A stretch of DNA of 64,000 nucleotides, from assembly GCA_018667335.1 (NCBI GenBank), contig JABIVD010000011.1, positions 1 through 64,000 of the forward strand, in the 5' to 3' direction. The notes under the pieces were generated by a model that saw only the letters and a program-made list of their open reading frames with translations, had not been told where the DNA came from and did not search any database. The translations under genes and the position numbers were made by a program. Of this stretch, positions 46,818-58,403 are shown in pieces; the stretch's first letter is position 1; every line of letters starts with the position of its first letter. Origin of the DNA: Rhodospirillaceae bacterium. GTDB lineage: Bacteria; Pseudomonadota; Alphaproteobacteria; UBA6615.

Positions 46818-47795
46818 ATGCAATATCGACACGTTGGCAACTCCGACCTGCAGGTCTCGCTGATCGGTCTCGGATGCAATAATTTCGGCGCCCGCATGAC
46901 GACCGAGGATGCGCGCCCGATCGTCTACAAGGCACTCGATCTCGGCGTCACGCTGTTCGATACCGCCGATTCCTATGGCTCCGGCGGGTCCGAGAGCGCA
47001 CTCGGCGATATCCTGGGCAGCCGGCGACAGGACATCGTGCTGGCCTCCAAGTTCGGCCTGTCTCTGGAAGATTCACCGCGCCGTGTCGTACCCACCACAC
47101 GCGACTACATCATGAACGCCGTCGAGGGCAGCTTGCGCCGGTTGCAAACCGACTGGATCGACCTGTACCAGTTGCATGCCCTGCATGCCGAAACGGCGAT
47201 GGACGAGGTTCTGCGCGCACTCGACGATCTCATTACCCAGGGCAAGGTTCGCCATGTCGGTTGCAGCAATCTTTCCGCGTGGCGCGTTGTCGACGCCAAC
47301 TGGATTGCGGAAACCCAGGGACACTCGGCCTTTGTCTCTTCGCAGAACGAATACAATCTGCTCAATCGCGGGGTCGAGAAGGAACTCCTGCCCGCGCTGC
47401 AGGAAAAGCAGATGGGATTTCTGCCCTTCTACCCCCTCGCCGCCGGCGTGCTGACCGGCAAGTATCGCAAGGGCGAGGCTGTTCCCGAAGGCACACGGCT
47501 CGACAAGATGGATCATCTTGTGACGCGCTTTTTCAATGACGAAACCATGGACATCGTCGAGGCATTGCGAGATTTCGCCGAAGCGCGTGGCCGCACATTG
47601 CTGGAACTTTCCTTCGCCTGGCTGGCCAGCCGCGACGTGATCCCGAGCATCATCGCCGGGACAAGCCGCCCGGAGCAGGTCGAAGCCAACGTCGCCGCCG
47701 TCGAATGGCAACTGAGCGACGACGAGGTTGACGAAATCGACCGGATTTCAGCCCTCGCATCCGATGCGCGCTTCGGCAGCCTGTTCCGGAACTAA
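46818..47795 (+). CDS. Aldo/keto reductase
   Basis: A 325-residue NADPH-dependent carbonyl reductase of the YajO/aryl-alcohol-dehydrogenase-like group. The catalytic tetrad is visible: Asp48 and Tyr53 in LFDTADSYGSGGSE, Lys78 in ASKFG, His120 in YQLHALH. The C-terminal SIIAGTSRPEQVEANVAAVEW binds the cofactor. Good ribosome site GAGGAGACATC. It may reduce a ketone or aldehyde intermediate of the catabolic locus downstream; the substrate cannot be inferred. Confidence 0.93.
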   Translation: MQYRHVGNSDLQVSLIGLGCNNFGARMTTEDARPIVYKALDLGVTLFDTADSYGSGGSESALGDILGSRRQDIVLASKFGLSLEDSPRRVVPTTRDYIMNAVEGSLRRLQTDWIDLYQLHALHAETAMDEVLRALDDLITQGKVRHVGCSNLSAWRVVDANWIAETQGHSAFVSSQNEYNLLNRGVEKELLPALQEKQMGFLPFYPLAAGVLTGKYRKGEAVPEGTRLDKMDHLVTRFFNDETMDIVEALRDFAEARGRTLLELSFAWLASRDVIPSIIAGTSRPEQVEANVAAVEWQLSDDEVDEIDRISALASDARFGSLFRN

Positions 47796-47977: not shown

Positions 47978-50017
47978 ATGGTGTTGGCACAGAGGAAAAG
48001 CAGCCGAAAGGCGTCGCCGCGCGGACCCGCAAAGAGCGGTGACAATCTGCAGCTGAACGCCGATGTTCTCGAGGATTTCTTCCGCACCGCGGTGCGAATC
48101 CGCACCTTCGAAGAACGTGTCCAGCAGGCATTCGAAGACAACACCATCAAGGGCACGGCGCACTCCTCCGTCGGCCAGGAAGCGATCGCGGTGGCGACCT
48201 GCGCCAATCTGCGAGACGACGATTATATCGCCACGCATCACCGCGGACACGGCCACACTATCGCCAAGGGCGCCAGCATTGACCGTATGATGGCCGAGTT
48301 GATGGGGCGCGTGGACGGCTACTGTCAGGGCCTCGGCGGCTCCATGCACATCGCCAATCTCGATCTCAAAATTCTCGGTGCCAACGGCATTGTCGGCGCC
48401 GCCATGCCGCTCGGCCTCGGAGCGTCCCTGGCGTCGAAGATACGGGGTACCGACCAGGTCGCGGTCTCCTATTTCGGTGACGGTGGTGCCAATCAGGGCC
48501 TGTTTCACGAAACCATGAACCTCGCTGCCGTCTGGAAATTGCCACTGATCTTCATTTGCGAGAACAACCAGTATGCGCTGAGTACGGCCATGACGAGCAC
48601 GACGTCAGTGGCGCAGATCTCCGACCGCGCCGTGGCATACGGTATTCCCGGCACGACCGTCGACGGCAACGATGCTGCAGAGATCTTTCATGTCATGCGC
48701 GATGCCGTTGAGCGCGCGCGCGCCGGAGAAGGACCCTCGTTGATCGAGGCGATGACCTGGCGCTGGGGACAGCATTCGGTGCGCGGCGGCATAGCCGATC
48801 CGAGGTCTGACGAAGACCGGGATCACTGGATCTCTCGCGACCCCCTGAAACGCCTCGAGAAGGACTTGCTGGCGCGGAAAGTGACGACCAAAAAGGGGCT
48901 CGAGACGATCCGCACACAAGCCGTGCAGGAGGTCGAGGAGGCCGTCGACTTCGGCGCCGCCAGCCCTGAGCCCGACGAAGAGACGATGTACAACTCGGTC
49001 TATTCGCCGCACGCATCGTATGACGAGCCCACATCACACGGTGATCGTCCACTGACCTATACCGAGGCGCTGAACGAGGCCATGCATCAGGAGATGGCGC
49101 GTGATGAGTCGGTTTTCATCATGGGCGAGGACATCGGCGCAACCGGCGGCATTTTCGGGACCACCAAGGGACTGTTCGACAAATACGGCCCCGCCCGGGT
49201 GCGCGACACGCCGATCTCCGAGCCCGCCTTCTGCGGCGCCGGGGTCGGCTCGGCGCTCGCCGGCATGCGCCCCATCGTCGAGGTTCAGATCTTCGACTTC
49301 GTCACCCTGATGATGGATATGCTGGTCAACCAGGCCGCAAAATTCCGCTACATGATGGGGGGCGAGCCGACCGTGCCGCTGGTGGTGCGAGGACCGCAGG
49401 GCGGCGGCATACGGCTTGCGGCGCAGCATAGCCAGAGCCTCGAGGCCTGGTTCACGCACGTCCCGGGTCTGGTCGTCGTCGCACCATCCACACCTTACGA
49501 CGCCAAGGGGCTGCTAACGGCAGCAATCCGCGACGACAACCCGGTGGTCTTCCTCGAACACAAATTGCTCTATTTCGGCGACGCAGAACCCGTGCCGGAA
49601 GAGCCCTACGCCATCCCGCTCGGCAAGGCCGACATCAAGCGCGAAGGCGCCGACGTCACCATCGTTGCGACACAGGCCATGGTGGCGCGTGCGCTGTCGG
49701 CTGCCCAGCAGCTCGAGAATGAGGGCATCAGCGTCGAGGTGATCGATCCGCGTACGTTGCGGCCGCTCGATGAAGAAACGATTCTCGAATCGGTTCGCAA
49801 GACCAACCGCCTCGTCGTCGTTCACGAGGCCTGGACCAAGGGTGGATTCGGCTCCGAGGTCTCGGCGATGGTCATGGAAAAAGCATTCGACTGGCTCGAT
49901 GCGCCAGTCACCAGGGTTGGTGCACCGGATGTGCCGATGCCGTTCAACGATCGACTCGAACTGGCGGTGATCCCGTCGGTCGAACGCATCGTCGCTGCGG
50001 TACGCGCCTTGTATTGA
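47978..50017 (+). CDS. Fused E1 alpha-beta 2-oxoacid/acetoin-type dehydrogenase
   Basis: A 679-residue thiamine-diphosphate enzyme in which the alpha (about 28-320) and beta (about 350-679) E1 subunits are joined in one chain by an acidic linker around 320-350. The alpha part has the ThDP motif [12 protein letters not shown] (167-178) with the closing ENNQY; the beta part has [17 protein letters not shown] and [20 protein letters not shown]. It resembles pyruvate, branched-chain and acetoin dehydrogenase E1. No E2 gene is near; lpdA at 16473 could supply E3. A crotonase follows after 27 nt. The ATG at 47978 has only a weak ribosome site; the basic Ser/Arg/Lys-rich first 20 residues are unlike other E1s. 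Confidence 0.88.
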
Positions 50018-50044
50018 TGTTCAAACTTAGGAGGAGAAACAGTT

Positions 50045-50908
50045 ATGTCGTTGGTCAAATTCATACCAGACCCGAAATTCGACGATTACCAAGAGGTCTT
50101 CAAGGACAACTACAAGATGGAACGGCGCGACGACGGCGTCATTCTTGTCCAGTCTCACATTGAGGGCGGCCCCATACAGCTGAGCGTCGAGAACCATCGT
50201 TCCGTCGCGCAAGTCTTCAAGACCGTCGGCGCCGATCCCGAGAACGAGGTCATGATCTTCACCGGAACCGGCGATGATTTCATGATGGAGCCCGACCCGA
50301 CAGGGTTCGAGATCGAGAAGAATGACCTGAACTACTGGGCGTACGAATATGCCTTCAAGGACGGGCGGGTCAATCTGAACTCCCTCATGAACGATCTGGA
50401 GATTCCCACGATCGGCGCGCTCAACGGCCCCGGCTTTCATACCGAATTGTGCCTGATGTGCGATCTGACGATCTGCAGCGAGGATGCGATCATTTTCGAT
50501 CTGCACTACGACATCGGTTCGGTCCCCGGCGACGGCATCAACGTGTGCTTCCAGGAACTGCTCGGCACCAAGCGGGCGGCCTATGCCCTGCTGACCGGTC
50601 AGGCGATCGACGCCCAGCAGGCATTGGATTGGGGCATGGTCAACGAGGTTGTACCCAAGGACAAATTGCTGGAGCGCTCCTACGAGCTGGCCGACCAGAT
50701 CATGAGCCAGCCACGCACCACCCGCCGCATGACCACCCAGGTCGTTCGCCGTCCGTGGAAGCGGAGAATGACCGACGATTTCGATGCCGGGCTGGCCATG
50801 CAGATGTTCTCGCAGGTCGCCGCAGACAGCGCGCATCACGATCAGCGGCACATCGGCGATGTCATCGCCTATGTCCGGGAAGGCAAGAAAAACAACTTCG
50901 ACAAGTAG
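50045..50908 (+). CDS. Crotonase-fold hydrolase, 6-oxocamphor-hydrolase-like
   Basis: A 287-residue crotonase-superfamily protein. Its motifs ENEVMIFTGTGDDF, GALNGPGFHTELCLMCD, FDLHYDIGSVPGDG and ALLTGQAIDAQQALDWG align with 6-oxocamphor hydrolase, which cleaves cyclic beta-diketones by a retro-Claisen reaction. The three residues I recall as catalytic there (His122, His145, Asp154) fall on His132, His154 and Asp163 here; the 9-residue spacing of the last pair is kept. This favours diketone cleavage over enoyl-CoA hydration, whose paired glutamates are not seen. AGGAGGAGAAACAGTT precedes the ATG. Probably co-transcribed with the E1 fusion. Confidence 0.82.
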   Translation: MSLVKFIPDPKFDDYQEVFKDNYKMERRDDGVILVQSHIEGGPIQLSVENHRSVAQVFKTVGADPENEVMIFTGTGDDFMMEPDPTGFEIEKNDLNYWAYEYAFKDGRVNLNSLMNDLEIPTIGALNGPGFHTELCLMCDLTICSEDAIIFDLHYDIGSVPGDGINVCFQELLGTKRAAYALLTGQAIDAQQALDWGMVNEVVPKDKLLERSYELADQIMSQPRTTRRMTTQVVRRPWKRRMTDDFDAGLAMQMFSQVAADSAHHDQRHIGDVIAYVREGKKNNFDK

Positions 50909-50920
50909 CGCGACGCGAAG

Positions 50921-50950
50921 CCAAAGCCCGGTTTCCAAACCGGGCTTTGG
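50921..50950. terminator. Strong hairpin between convergent genes
   Basis: CCAAAGCCCGGTTT (50921-50934) and AAACCGGGCTTTGG (50937-50950) are fully complementary over 14 bases. It lies 13 nt after the crotonase stop, with the minus-strand OYE gene ending at 51057. There is no external T-run, but its location and stability suggest a bidirectional terminator. Confidence 0.65.
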
Positions 50951-51056: not shown

Positions 51057-52211
51057 TCAGGCCTCGAACGTCACCCCGTTGGCTGCCCGCCAAGCGGCAG
51101 TGGCATCGAGCGTCGCAAACGGACTGATCATCTCCGGATCGAAGGCGAGGGGTGCCTCGCCCTTCGCCAATTTATCGGGCCAGGACGGATCGCCGATGGC
51201 GCCGCGCGCGATCGCGACCAGATCGGCTTCCCCCGCCGCCAGAAGCTGCTCGCCATTGGCGGGGTCTTCCAGCTTGCCGCAGGCAATGACGGGTACTCCG
51301 GCATACGCGCGCGCCAGGCCGGCCAATGTACGCCCGCTGCCGAACTCCTCGCCCAGGCCCTGATGGGTGCTGACATGGATGTAGTCCGCGCCCGCGTCGG
51401 CCAGTGCTGAGAAGATTGCCTTCGCGTCGTCGACGCCACCGGCCCATTTATAGTTGAAGTCGTTCGAGCGGCTCTGGGACATGCGCATGCCGGCGAGCCC
51501 CCGGCCCGCGACACCGCGCACCACCGCTGCCATAATTTCGAGATGGAAGCGCAGGCGGTTCTCCAGCGACCCGCCATATGCGTCCGTGCGGGTGTTGCTC
51601 TCCGGCGTCAGGAACTGAACCGGCAGATAGCCGTTGGCGCCGTGAATCTCGACGCCGTCGAACCCGGCTGTCATCCCATTCGCGGCGGCCGTCTCGAATG
51701 AGGCCACCACAGCCGTGATCTCGTCGCCCGTCATGGCGCGCGGCGTGTGGAACGGGCCATCGCCATAGTAACGCGCGCCCATGGCACCGGCCGGCTGGAT
51801 CGCCGATGGCGCGACGATGTCGTCGGTGTAGCGATTCTCCTGGACCAGTGCCCCGGCATGCATGACCTGCAGGACGATGCGCCCGCCCGCGGCGTGCACG
51901 GCGCCTGTCACCTGGCGCCAGCCATCGACCTGGGCCGGTGTCACGATCCCCGGCTGGTCCCGATAGCCCTGGCTCTGGAGCGTGTCGGTATGGGTGCCCT
52001 CGGTGATGATCAGGCCGAAGCCGCCACGCGCGAACGCGGCGTAATGGTCGGCCATCTGCGCCGTCGGCACGCCGTCGGCATCCGCACTGATCCGGGTCAT
52101 CGGCGCGACGACCGAACGGTTCGGCAGATCGAGCGAACCCAGGTGAAACGGGGAGAGAATATGCGGCCAGCGGGCCGCGCCGGAATCATTCCCTGAATTA
52201 TTCATCGACAT
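51057..52211 (-). CDS. Old Yellow Enzyme family flavin oxidoreductase
   Basis: A 384-residue FMN ene-reductase. FMN/substrate motifs are visible: LPNRSVVAPMTRISAD near residue 30-45, the active-site EIHGANGYLPVQFLTP, then NTRTDAYGGSLENRLRFHLEIM and LVAIARGAIGDPSWPDK. The class is the NemA/classical OYE type without an iron-sulfur domain. It would reduce an enone or nitro compound with NAD(P)H. It is the last gene of a minus-strand set of four (21 nt after the IMDH-like gene). A relic of its 3' end is found at 46662. Confidence 0.93.
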   Translation of the reverse strand: MSMNNSGNDSGAARWPHILSPFHLGSLDLPNRSVVAPMTRISADADGVPTAQMADHYAAFARGGFGLIITEGTHTDTLQSQGYRDQPGIVTPAQVDGWRQVTGAVHAAGGRIVLQVMHAGALVQENRYTDDIVAPSAIQPAGAMGARYYGDGPFHTPRAMTGDEITAVVASFETAAANGMTAGFDGVEIHGANGYLPVQFLTPESNTRTDAYGGSLENRLRFHLEIMAAVVRGVAGRGLAGMRMSQSRSNDFNYKWAGGVDDAKAIFSALADAGADYIHVSTHQGLGEEFGSGRTLAGLARAYAGVPVIACGKLEDPANGEQLLAAGEADLVAIARGAIGDPSWPDKLAKGEAPLAFDPEMISPFATLDATAAWRAANGVTFEA

Positions 52212-55101: not shown

Positions 55102-55417
55102 GAATTTTCCCCCGTTCCTGACGCGCGGCACTAACCCACGGCCCTTCGAACGATCCTAGCCGGGCGTGACGCCGGCTGAAAGCCCCGGGAAACAGGTCGG
55201 AATCTACAGTCATAAATATGCCATGCTCTACGCCCACAAGTTGCGCCCATACCGTCTTGCAGTTCTTCGCCAGACGAAATTGCGGTACACGAGTCCGTTA
55301 CTTGAGCGCCCATGAGTGGTAATGCGTTAATCAGTTTCGCATTCTAGGCCGTAACGGCACGAATTCGCCGATGAGCCAACAATAGTTCAGACAATTATTC
55401 TCTGGGAGGAGATGCCC
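55102..55417. promoter_or_regulatory. Divergent control region, hydrolase set versus TRAP operon
   Basis: A 316-nt non-coding stretch between the starts of two divergent transcription units. It contains a short hairpin (AGCCGG at 55158-55163 with CCGGCT at 55172-55177) and an inverted pair CCGTTAC (55295-55301) / GTAACGG (55351-55357). Either could be an operator, but neither can be tied to a known factor. The end carries GGGAGGAG, the ribosome site of the TRAP binding protein. Confidence 0.45.
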
Positions 55418-56437
55418 ATGTCATCGAAATTTACCGTCACAACAATTCTATCGGGTGCCATCGTCACCGCAGGGCTGCTGTTCGCGGGGCCGGCGTCGGC
55501 GCAGACCGAAGTCCTGATCAACAATTACCTGCCGCCGAAACACCCGTTCCAGACGCAGATCGTTGCGCCCTGGATTGACGAGGTCATCGTCGCGACGGGT
55601 GGTTCCGTGAAGCCGACACTTTCCGCTGCCGCAGTCGGTCCGCCGCCGAAGAACTGGCAGACTGTCGTCAAGGGCGTCGCGGACGTCGTCGTGCTGGCCA
55701 ACCTGTTTCAGCCGAAACGCATTCAGCTCCCGCCGGTAGCCGAGATGCCGCTGAACTCGGGATCGTCCGAGAAAACCTCCGCGGCGCTCTGGACCACCCA
55801 TGAAAAGTTCTTCGCGGCCGCCAACGAATATGACGGCGCGGTTCTGCTCGGCTCCTTCTCGCTGACCCCGAATGTCATTCACAGCGGCGGTACGCCGATC
55901 ACCTCGATTGCGGACCTCAAGGGATACAAGCTGCGGGCATCACCGGGCATCACCACCAATGTGCTGAAGGAACTCGGCGCGGTGCCGGTTGCGTCCGGGC
56001 CGTCCAAGATCTTTGGCCTGATCTCCAAGGGCGTCGTGGACGGAGTCGCGGTGCCGGCACATGGTCTGCGGGCGTTCCGCATGCTGCCCTACATCAAGGC
56101 CACCACGACCTTCCCAGGCGGACTGTCGAACACGACCTTCTCGCTGCTCATGAACCAGGACAAGTGGGACAGCCTGAGCGCCGAACAGCAGGCGCAGGTG
56201 ATGAGCGTGTCGGGCGCCCATATTTCGTCCAAGGGCCCCGGCATGGACAAGGTCGCCGCAGGATCCCTCAAAGCATTGCGGGACCAGGGCGGCCAGGTTG
56301 TTGCGGCAGACGCAGAGATGGTCGCAGCGATCGCCAAGTTCTCGGCGCAGCTGGAAGCCGACTGGCTCGCGAAGGCAAATGCCAAGGGCGTTGACGGCCC
56401 GGCCGCACTGGCCTTCTTCCGCGCGCAACTGAAGTAG
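55418..56437 (+). CDS. TRAP transporter solute-binding protein (DctP)
   Basis: A 339-residue periplasmic binding protein. The signal peptide is MSSKFTVTTILSGAIVTAGL and ends near ASAQ at residue 29; the mature part has VLINNYLPPKHPF, DLKGYKLRASPG and SLLMNQDKWDSLS, with Arg in the conserved KLRASPG block that salt-bridges carboxylate ligands. This indicates an organic acid ligand. I prefer the ATG at 55418 because GGGAGGAG sits 6 nt before it, while an ATG at 55412 abuts this site. It leads dctP-dctQ-dctM; a hairpin follows the gene. Confidence 0.94.
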   Translation: MSSKFTVTTILSGAIVTAGLLFAGPASAQTEVLINNYLPPKHPFQTQIVAPWIDEVIVATGGSVKPTLSAAAVGPPPKNWQTVVKGVADVVVLANLFQPKRIQLPPVAEMPLNSGSSEKTSAALWTTHEKFFAAANEYDGAVLLGSFSLTPNVIHSGGTPITSIADLKGYKLRASPGITTNVLKELGAVPVASGPSKIFGLISKGVVDGVAVPAHGLRAFRMLPYIKATTTFPGGLSNTTFSLLMNQDKWDSLSAEQQAQVMSVSGAHISSKGPGMDKVAAGSLKALRDQGGQVVAADAEMVAAIAKFSAQLEADWLAKANAKGVDGPAALAFFRAQLK

Positions 56438-56478
56438 CAGCGGGTTCGCAGCATCACGCAACGCGCTGATGCACGCAC

Positions 56479-56510
56479 AGCCGCCGTCGGAGTAGCTACC
56501 GACGGCGGCT
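56479..56510 (+). other. Intercistronic hairpin between dctP and dctQ
   Basis: AGCCGCCGTCGG (56479-56490) and CCGACGGCGGCT (56499-56510) form a perfect 12-bp stem with an 8-nt loop 41 nt after the dctP stop. There is no T-run. Such elements often protect or partly terminate the message after a binding-protein gene, which would give excess binding protein over the membrane subunits. Confidence 0.7.
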
Positions 56511-56544
56511 GATCTGCTTCCCCCAACATAAAACAAAGATTTCC

Positions 56545-57111
56545 GTGAGCACGCCCGCAGACCCCCTCGACATCGACGAAAGTGCGCTAACCGAGGACTA
56601 TGCTGTCCCCGCGTCGAAGGCTGGCGGATTCGCCTGGCCGATCCGTATCCTGACAGGCATTGCAGCGATCTTCATGGCATTGATCGCGGGCGTGACATTT
56701 GTCGACGTGACGGGTCGCTATATTTTTACCGCGCCAATACCCGGTGGCGTCGAAATCATCGAATTCCTGCTCGGGCTTCTGATCTTCTCCGCCCTGCCCC
56801 TCGTGATCGTAAAGAACGCCCACATCACCGTGGAGCTGTTCGACGGGTTTATGAGCGAGGGTTTCAAGCGGATTCGCGATTTCATCGTCCTGCTCGGCAA
56901 CGCCGGCGTGCTGGCATTCATCACGTCTCGCATGTGGTTCACCGCGCTCGAGATGCAGGAATTCGACGAAATATCTCTGCACCTCGAAGTGCCGACGGCA
57001 CCGCTCCTGTTTACGCTCGCCGGCCTCAGCGCCATGAGCGTGCTGACGCAGCTCTACTTGGCCTGGATGATGATCGCTTCGCGTCGAACAGCCGCCGGAG
57101 GAAATGACTGA
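56545..57111 (+). CDS. TRAP transporter small membrane subunit (DctQ)
   Basis: A 188-residue inner-membrane protein with four hydrophobic helices (about 30-56, 68-87, 110-130, 150-175). VTFVDVTGRYIF and IIEFLLGLLIFSALPLVIVKNAHITVEL are typical DctQ blocks. The start is a GTG at 56545 and the stop TGA shares its final A with the ATG of the large subunit. Confidence 0.93.
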   Translation: MSTPADPLDIDESALTEDYAVPASKAGGFAWPIRILTGIAAIFMALIAGVTFVDVTGRYIFTAPIPGGVEIIEFLLGLLIFSALPLVIVKNAHITVELFDGFMSEGFKRIRDFIVLLGNAGVLAFITSRMWFTALEMQEFDEISLHLEVPTAPLLFTLAGLSAMSVLTQLYLAWMMIASRRTAAGGND

Positions 57112-58403
57112 TGGCGATATCACTGGCCGGATTCGGCATCTTGTTGGTGATCGCGTTCCTTGGTTTTCCGCTCGGATTCTCCATGATTATCGTCGGCTTT
57201 GCGGGGTTCGCCATTATCCGCGGCACGGTCCCGGCATTGGAGACGGTCAGCCAGCAAATTCTCGATCTCGCGCTCAACGCCAACTTCGTGACTCTGCCGC
57301 TGTTCGTCCTGATGGGGGTGTTCGTGTTTCGCGCAGCCCTGGCCGAGGACATCTATGAGGCCGCCCAATCCTGGCTTGGCGACAAGCGCGGTGGCCTGGC
57401 GATGACCACGGTCGCGGCCTGCGCCGGGTTCGCGTCGATCTCGGGTTCTTCCGTCGCGACCGCGGCGACGATGGCCAAGGTCTCGATCCCGCCCATGCGC
57501 CGCTACAACTATAACGAAGGCTTCGCGGCCGGGTCGGTCGCAGCTGGCGGGACGATGGGCATCCTGATCCCGCCCTCGGCGGCGTTGATCATCTACGGCA
57601 TCCTGACCGAGCAGAGCATCGGCGACCTCTTCATTGCCGGCCTGATCCCGGGCCTGGTCACCGTGCTGCTGTATATCGCCGTGATCTGGCTGGTCGCCAA
57701 GATCTGGCCGCACCTGGCACCGCGCGCAGAGCGCGGGAGCTGGGCCGTACGCTGGCGCACCCTGTCGAAGATCTGGGCCGTACTGGTGCTCTTCCTGGCG
57801 ATCATCGGCGGCATCTCCTTCGGCATATTCACGCCGACCGAAGGCGGCGGGATCGGCGCGATCGGCGCGTTGCTCTTCGCCATCGCCCGCCGCCGCATGA
57901 ACCTGCGGATCTTCTTCTTCGCCCTGGCCGAGGCGGCCGAGACGACCGCCATGATTTTCACCATCGCCTTCGGCGCGCTGATCCTGAACAACTTCGTGAA
58001 CGTCGCGGGCCTGCCCAACGCGATCGTGGCGTTCATTCAGTCGCTCGACATTGCGCCGCTCACGGTCATCCTGGTGATCTTGCTGATCTATATCCTGCTG
58101 GGCACGATCATCGAGGGCCTGGCGATGATCTTCCTGACGGTGCCCATCTTCGTGCCGGTTGTCGATGCCATGGGCTTCGATCTGATCTGGTTCGGCATCG
58201 TCATGGTGATGGTCGTCGAGATCAGCCTGATCACTCCGCCCATCGGACTGAACGTGTTCGTGATCAAGTCGATGCTGCCCGACGTGCCACTCAGCGCGAT
58301 CTTCAAGGGCATCGTGCCCTTCTTCGCCGCCGACATCGTCCGGCTCCTGCTCGTTGTCTTTCTGCCGGGGCTGGCACTCTGGCTGCCGCGGGTCCTGTCC
58401 TGA
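57111..58403 (+). CDS. TRAP transporter large permease subunit (DctM)
   Basis: A 430-residue sodium-coupled permease with about 12 helices. The segments TLPLFVLMGVFVF, SISGSSVATAATMAKVSIP and GGTMGILIPPSAALIIYGILTE are diagnostic of DctM. The start overlaps the dctQ stop by one base. With DctP and DctQ it imports a carboxylate or related acid. Ends 22 nt before the convergent acyl-CoA dehydrogenase gene. Confidence 0.97.
   Translation: MAISLAGFGILLVIAFLGFPLGFSMIIVGFAGFAIIRGTVPALETVSQQILDLALNANFVTLPLFVLMGVFVFRAALAEDIYEAAQSWLGDKRGGLAMTTVAACAGFASISGSSVATAATMAKVSIPPMRRYNYNEGFAAGSVAAGGTMGILIPPSAALIIYGILTEQSIGDLFIAGLIPGLVTVLLYIAVIWLVAKIWPHLAPRAERGSWAVRWRTLSKIWAVLVLFLAIIGGISFGIFTPTEGGGIGAIGALLFAIARRRMNLRIFFFALAEAAETTAMIFTIAFGALILNNFVNVAGLPNAIVAFIQSLDIAPLTVILVILLIYILLGTIIEGLAMIFLTVPIFVPVVDAMGFDLIWFGIVMVMVVEISLITPPIGLNVFVIKSMLPDVPLSAIFKGIVPFFAADIVRLLLVVFLPGLALWLPRVLS

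Follow-up and report, generated by a model that had tools for sequence, protein, structure and literature searches.

The window, as we call the whole 64,000 nt stretch of DNA analysed here, belongs to a genome of 62 contigs (3.55 Mb) and carries on the forward strand, at 50045..50908 (+), a gene for a 287 aa crotonase of the 6-oxocamphor hydrolase (OCH) type. We assigned the product to a clade T (the window clade) as a putative CoA-independent retro-Claisen C–C hydrolase. The bounds of the ORF are exact, with the ATG at 50045 and the stop codon at 50906-50908. A Shine-Dalgarno-like AGGAGG (50029..50034, +) is located ~9 nt 5′ of the start, and the GC contents of 0.59/0.34/0.81 at codon positions 1/2/3 represent a coding-like profile. 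An antisense ORF of 303 aa over the gene (50027-50938) was rejected on GC by codon position as a mere shadow of the coding frame. Promoter and terminator scans yielded no signal exceeding the shuffled expectation. The closest named relatives of the hydrolase belong to metagenome-assembled Alphaproteobacteria, and at least one of these assemblies bears a marine name.

The gene directly upstream (47978..50017, +) encodes a 679 aa fused E1 alpha-beta protein of the ThDP-dependent 2-oxoacid/acetoin dehydrogenase type, as judged by the Pfam domains E1_dh, Transket_pyr and Transketolase_C and by its PDB relatives among PDH E1 proteins. The original prediction had placed the hydrolase beside an E1 fusion, and this setting was upheld. 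As the E1 gene ends 27 nt 5′ of the hydrolase start on the same strand, the two genes are probably co-transcribed. An aldo/keto reductase gene (46818..47795, +) lies upstream of E1, and an old-yellow-enzyme-type oxidoreductase gene (51057..52211, -) is the convergent neighbour of the hydrolase; both are also present in the genome G005, the reductase likewise upstream. Farther downstream, the old-yellow-enzyme gene and isopropylmalate-dehydrogenase-like, NmrA-like and alpha/beta-hydrolase genes separate the hydrolase from a complete DctP-DctQ-DctM TRAP transporter (55412-58403). In another member of the genus, G002, a three-subunit xanthine-dehydrogenase-type molybdenum hydroxylase is located 3′ of the hydrolase instead (L033:10782-14438).

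Within the genus of the window, an E1 orthologue of at least 90% identity was found in all three members with the hydrolase and in none of the four without it, so that the remark on gene setting proved a useful lead. Five other hydrolase-bearing genomes of the family, from other genera, have no close E1 orthologue (best match ~50% or none). The window genome shows only two E2 genes, one adjacent to sucA and one on contig C11 close to a PDH-type E1 gene, so that the E1 of the window is left without an obvious partner of its own.

Relationship to OCH and conservation of the catalytic residues

The best phmmer matches of the hydrolase in the PDB were OCH of Rhodococcus (1o8u, E = 1.4e-43; also 1szo), which is 37-39% identical, and the Anabaena beta-diketone hydrolase ABDH (Alr4455; 2j5g, E = 1.8e-35; also 2j5s), which is ~30% identical; the next-best crotonase outside these two reached E = 1.8e-22. 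The Pfam family is ECH_1, and the cut-offs of the curated NCBIfam crotonase families were not reached (top score 122 bits versus 354 required). We placed the protein in a tree of 65 rows under LG+C20 PMSF, in which the program flags long branches. A branch with 100/100 support sets the window clade, a sister group S, OCH, ABDH and the OCH-like proteins apart from 16 CoA crotonases, among them E. coli CaiD, PaaF, PaaG and MenB. The hydrolase is thereby excluded from the enoyl-CoA hydratases and carnitinyl-CoA dehydratases, and CaiD groups with the CoA crotonases. The window clade has its own support of 100/100 and lies outside the group of OCH and ABDH (91/85).

The AF2 model of the hydrolase (pLDDT 92.8, pTM 0.92) was compared with known structures by VIA-align. 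The superposition on OCH that had been proposed as a check gave Z 34.5 and 1.5 Å over 249 residues, followed by ABDH (Z 33.0, 1.6 Å) and the best hydratase (Z 29.2, 2.2 Å). Mycobacterial EchA15-like proteins (3q1t, 3qk8), of which 3q1t was proposed to be a beta-diketone hydrolase through local-site matching (PMC3584854), are more distant, at ~20% identity and Z ~28. Given the tree split and the fold, the hydrolase does not take the place among hydratases or beside CaiD that the original prediction had named as evidence against itself. At both termini the hydrolase is longer than OCH, and it carries an insert at about residues 83-100.

The sequence blocks NGPGFHTE and DLHYDIGSVPGDG claimed to hold the catalytic triad were both found in the ORF. 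In the phmmer alignment numbered against 1o8u, His132 (codon 50438..50440, +), His154 (50504..50506, +) and Asp163 (50531..50533, +) correspond, as predicted, to His122, His145 and Asp154 of OCH; the residue aligned with His132 is Ala in 1szo, the His122Ala mutant. The spacing between the last pair is nine residues in both proteins, again as predicted, whereas the two His are 22 residues apart in the hydrolase and 23 in OCH because two loops are each one residue shorter. The predicted triad lacked a further residue, His51 (50195..50197, +), which aligns with His45 of OCH and His43 of ABDH. The catalytic residues of ABDH were assigned by active-site matching as H43, H144, D153 and E243 (PMC3584854), and the first three of these are matched in the hydrolase. 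The fourth catalytic site, Glu244 in OCH and Glu243 in ABDH, is Gln253 here (50801..50803, +), a substitution that had gone unremarked.

The four residues other than Gln253 are invariant in all 68 members of the window clade, as are H38 and D152: H38, H51, H132, D152, H154 and D163 show zero variation across the 68 proteins, which represent at least three phyla. Among 11 OCH-like proteins, H132 is present in 10 and the other five residues in all. Neither H132, H154 nor D163 occurs in any of the seven CoA crotonases compared, and His is found in the H51 column of one of them. The conservation of the four-residue set H51/H132/H154/D163 is beyond chance. At the fourth site, all 68 clade members have Gln, in contrast to Glu in 11/11 OCH-like proteins.

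The original reading was therefore probably right in the enzyme class but incomplete, and we regard it as partly supported: homology and the His/His/Asp set speak for an OCH-type enzyme, while the separate clade and the invariant Gln253 in place of Glu244/243 (68/68) set it apart from OCH and ABDH themselves. The hydrolase matches the OCH type in every tested respect bar one catalytic residue. Judged by sequence, the window protein is a variant of the OCH type with a clade of its own and not an OCH.

Distribution of the clade and its ThDP-enzyme neighbours

A scan of genome contigs recovered at least 80 loci, most of which encode full-length proteins of 60-89% identity in Alpha-, Beta- and Gammaproteobacteria, Acidobacteria and Actinobacteria. 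A second group at 40-44% identity includes Sphingobium, Nocardia, Paenibacillus and others. Across the class, 13/385 genomes have a match at E ≤ 1e-25, and the three close orthologues are all in the family of the window, in which 8/24 genomes carry the hydrolase. The spread of the window clade is thus broad yet patchy. The class had been described as having few known members, which holds for the characterised enzymes but not for their sequence relatives, with >500 stretches in one genome scan and 33 plasmid records. Phage records gave weak partial matches at 27-33% identity among the matches listed, one of which falls under an annotated carnitinyl-CoA dehydratase.

We compared the gene neighbourhoods of the clade. 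A ThDP gene is present in the fetched flanks of 38/67 loci and nearby in 29 of the 44 well-flanked ones, defined as having at least 5 kb to the left and at least 3 kb to the right of the hydrolase. The binomial tail for this enrichment is <1e-10 against 5-20% per 20 kb, a background that we assumed and did not take from a measured control. ThDP genes are rarer in sister group S (2/10 loci, p = 0.012). The main ThDP partner is a split transketolase-like pair of N and C halves, found at ~30 loci in several phyla, usually on the same strand as the hydrolase and with the C half <1 kb away; E1 beta was assigned at 10 loci of the clade and E1 alpha at 8. The flanks also repeatedly contain 3-hydroxyisobutyrate/2-hydroxy-3-oxopropionate-dehydrogenase-like genes, together with genes for SSADH-like aldehyde dehydrogenases, amidohydrolases and small-solute transporters. 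In the clustering of neighbours the ORFs were chosen by a composition score, and the 3-hydroxyisobutyrate-dehydrogenase-like genes were separated from the hydrolase by direct search.

Several individual loci showed further features. A DddP/DoeA-like M24 enzyme recurs by the transketolase and hydrolase genes, mostly in Actinobacteria (L063:3884-5137, L064:1939-3186, L069:1886-3133 and L092:9077-10480). Paenibacillus harbors two tandem OCH-related crotonases (L120:9989-11654; also L121 and L122), and in L120 two genes of Gfo/Idh/MocA dehydrogenases, identified by Pfam, are located upstream of them. On the Novosphingobium plasmid pLA3 (L143, 806-6726), an OCH-like crotonase gene lies directly 3′ of a molybdopterin oxidoreductase gene, and a ThDP-binding protein and an aldehyde dehydrogenase are encoded nearby, a setting that resembles that of the main clade.

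Pyrogallol-phloroglucinol-transhydroxylase-like homologues occur in 17/24 genomes of the family. In the window genome, the large subunit of this molybdoenzyme (G000:C40:170132-173071; L137:10087-13077, -) has an N-terminal extension and is accompanied by an Fe-S small subunit (L137:9239-10090, -), an SDR, a sulfatase-like gene and an IclR-type regulator. In the betaproteobacterial loci L073, L095 and L105 (~1-9 kb), the molybdoenzyme genes are located 3′ of a gene for a conserved MmpL/RND-like protein of 816-894 aa, which in L073 and L095 is itself preceded by a gene for a YCF48-like protein.

Candidate function, substrates and alternative readings

We consider the protein, with a probability of about 0.6, to be a putative CoA-independent OCH-type retro-Claisen hydrolase that would hand an alpha-ketol or alpha-dicarbonyl compound on to a ThDP enzyme. 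The hydrolase class is likely on the grounds of homology, residues, tree and fold, and gene order suggests the hand-over to the ThDP enzyme. We infer the catalytic steps from OCH and ABDH, from knowledge of the family and from PMC3584854. His154, held by Asp163, would activate a water molecule, which would attack one carbonyl of a 1,3-diketone, probably a cyclic one. In the retro-Claisen cleavage that follows, His132 and His51 would bind the second carbonyl and donate a proton to the departing enolate to give a ring-opened keto acid, with Gln253 standing in for the usual Glu in the window clade. The product would then be cleaved by the fused E1 in the window or by the split transketolase in most relatives. 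Dihydrophloroglucinol cyclohydrolase (PMC10470551) likewise opens a cyclic 1,3-diketone by retro-Claisen cleavage, an analogy only, as that enzyme belongs to an unrelated Mn-dependent 'cyclase' family. Points against the hydrolase reading are the change of Glu244/243 to Gln, the 30-39% identity to characterised enzymes, the shortening of both catalytic loops by one residue relative to OCH, an active-site geometry that is predicted only, the confinement of the E1 neighbour to one genus, and the fact that this E1 has no evident E2 partner.

Gene order is compatible with two types of product. The cut of a cyclic 2-hydroxy- or 2-alkoxy-1,3-dione would give a hydroxymethyl-type ketone, a transketolase donor, and that of a hydroxyquinone trione would give a methyl alpha-diketone fit for an acetoin-dehydrogenase-type E1. 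Two such products would account for the association of the hydrolase with one or the other type of ThDP enzyme. At somewhat under even odds, we tentatively propose that the clade represents an undescribed subfamily of retro-Claisen hydrolases (His-His-His-Asp, with Gln for Glu) that would feed ThDP enzymes in a novel ring-degradation pathway and would have spread horizontally over Alpha-, Beta- and Gammaproteobacteria, Acidobacteria and Actinobacteria. Enzymes of the OCH class, rare C–C bond hydrolases of camphor degradation, are prized for desymmetrising diketones. The characterised ones are few, and two with solved structures were found in the present analysis. With its 68 or more members, its conserved partner enzyme and an invariant substitution at a catalytic position, the clade offers fresh biocatalyst candidates, and its context hints at a catabolic route.

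One specific substrate class would be a polyol-derived 2-hydroxy- (or methoxy-) 1,3-dione, either an oxidised cyclitol or a 4-deoxygadusol-like mycosporine ring. Its cut would yield a hydroxymethyl ketone, the natural donor of transketolase, and this chemistry suits the split transketolase and the SSADH-like and 2-hydroxy-3-oxopropionate-reductase-like neighbours. A pair of Gfo/Idh/MocA dehydrogenases near the Paenibacillus relatives in clade S also speaks for it. Gfo/Idh/MocA genes are, however, missing from the most frequent gene families next to the main clade, and the proposal is drawn from chemical grounds alone; we consider it unlikely. An inositol-type route was also weighed, but sugar dehydrogenases are not recurrent beside the main clade.

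Alternatively, the hydrolase may act in polyphenol degradation and open a hydroxyquinone, either 2-hydroxy-1,4-benzoquinone as its 1,2,4-trione tautomer or a similar compound, and E1 would then cleave the methyl alpha-diketone to an acetyl group and a semialdehyde for an aldehyde dehydrogenase. One possible route of resorcinol breakdown passes through hydroxyhydroquinone, an oxidative dearomatisation and a hydrolytic cleavage (PMC10470551). A pyrogallol-transhydroxylase-like molybdoenzyme is encoded beside the hydrolase in the betaproteobacterial loci L073, L095 and L105; that of L095 matches 4v4c (E = 2.4e-279) and is accompanied by an ALDH and a full E1-E2-E3 set, and a homologue of 54% is present elsewhere in the window genome. 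There, however, it lies far from the hydrolase, and the molybdoenzyme occurs in 7/8 hydrolase-positive versus 10/16 hydrolase-negative genomes of the family (p = 0.35). In the order of L105, just 1/300 genomes has the hydrolase, namely that of L105 itself. As the co-occurrence is not significant, we keep the polyphenol reading as a rival only, and a quite improbable one.

It is similarly doubtful that the protein only looks like OCH and acts as an ordinary CoA-dependent crotonase, be it a hydratase, an isomerase or a ring hydrolase of CoA thioesters. It shares the fold and the Pfam family ECH_1 with enoyl-CoA hydratase, CaiD and MenB and retains Glu134 in the column of hydratase Glu144, and one OCH-like plasmid locus lies amid CoA-dependent genes. 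The column of the other hydratase residue, Glu164, is nevertheless occupied by His154 in 68/68 clade members, as it is by His in OCH and, inferred across two tables of PMC3584854, by H144 in ABDH. The oxyanion/CoA loop reads FMMEPDP instead of the hydratase-type GxD motif, the tree separates the two groups at 100/100, and the recurrent neighbours are ThDP and 3-hydroxyisobutyrate-dehydrogenase-like genes rather than CoA genes.

The weakest alternative, that Glu244 to Gln altered the chemistry within the retained fold toward a lyase, tautomerase or Claisen-type step in place of hydrolysis, draws on the strict Gln253/Glu difference between the clade (68/68) and the OCH-like proteins (11/11) and appears very unlikely, given that every member has the water-activating His-Asp pair and both other His, and that clade S has E in nine and Q in seven members, so the change may be tolerated.
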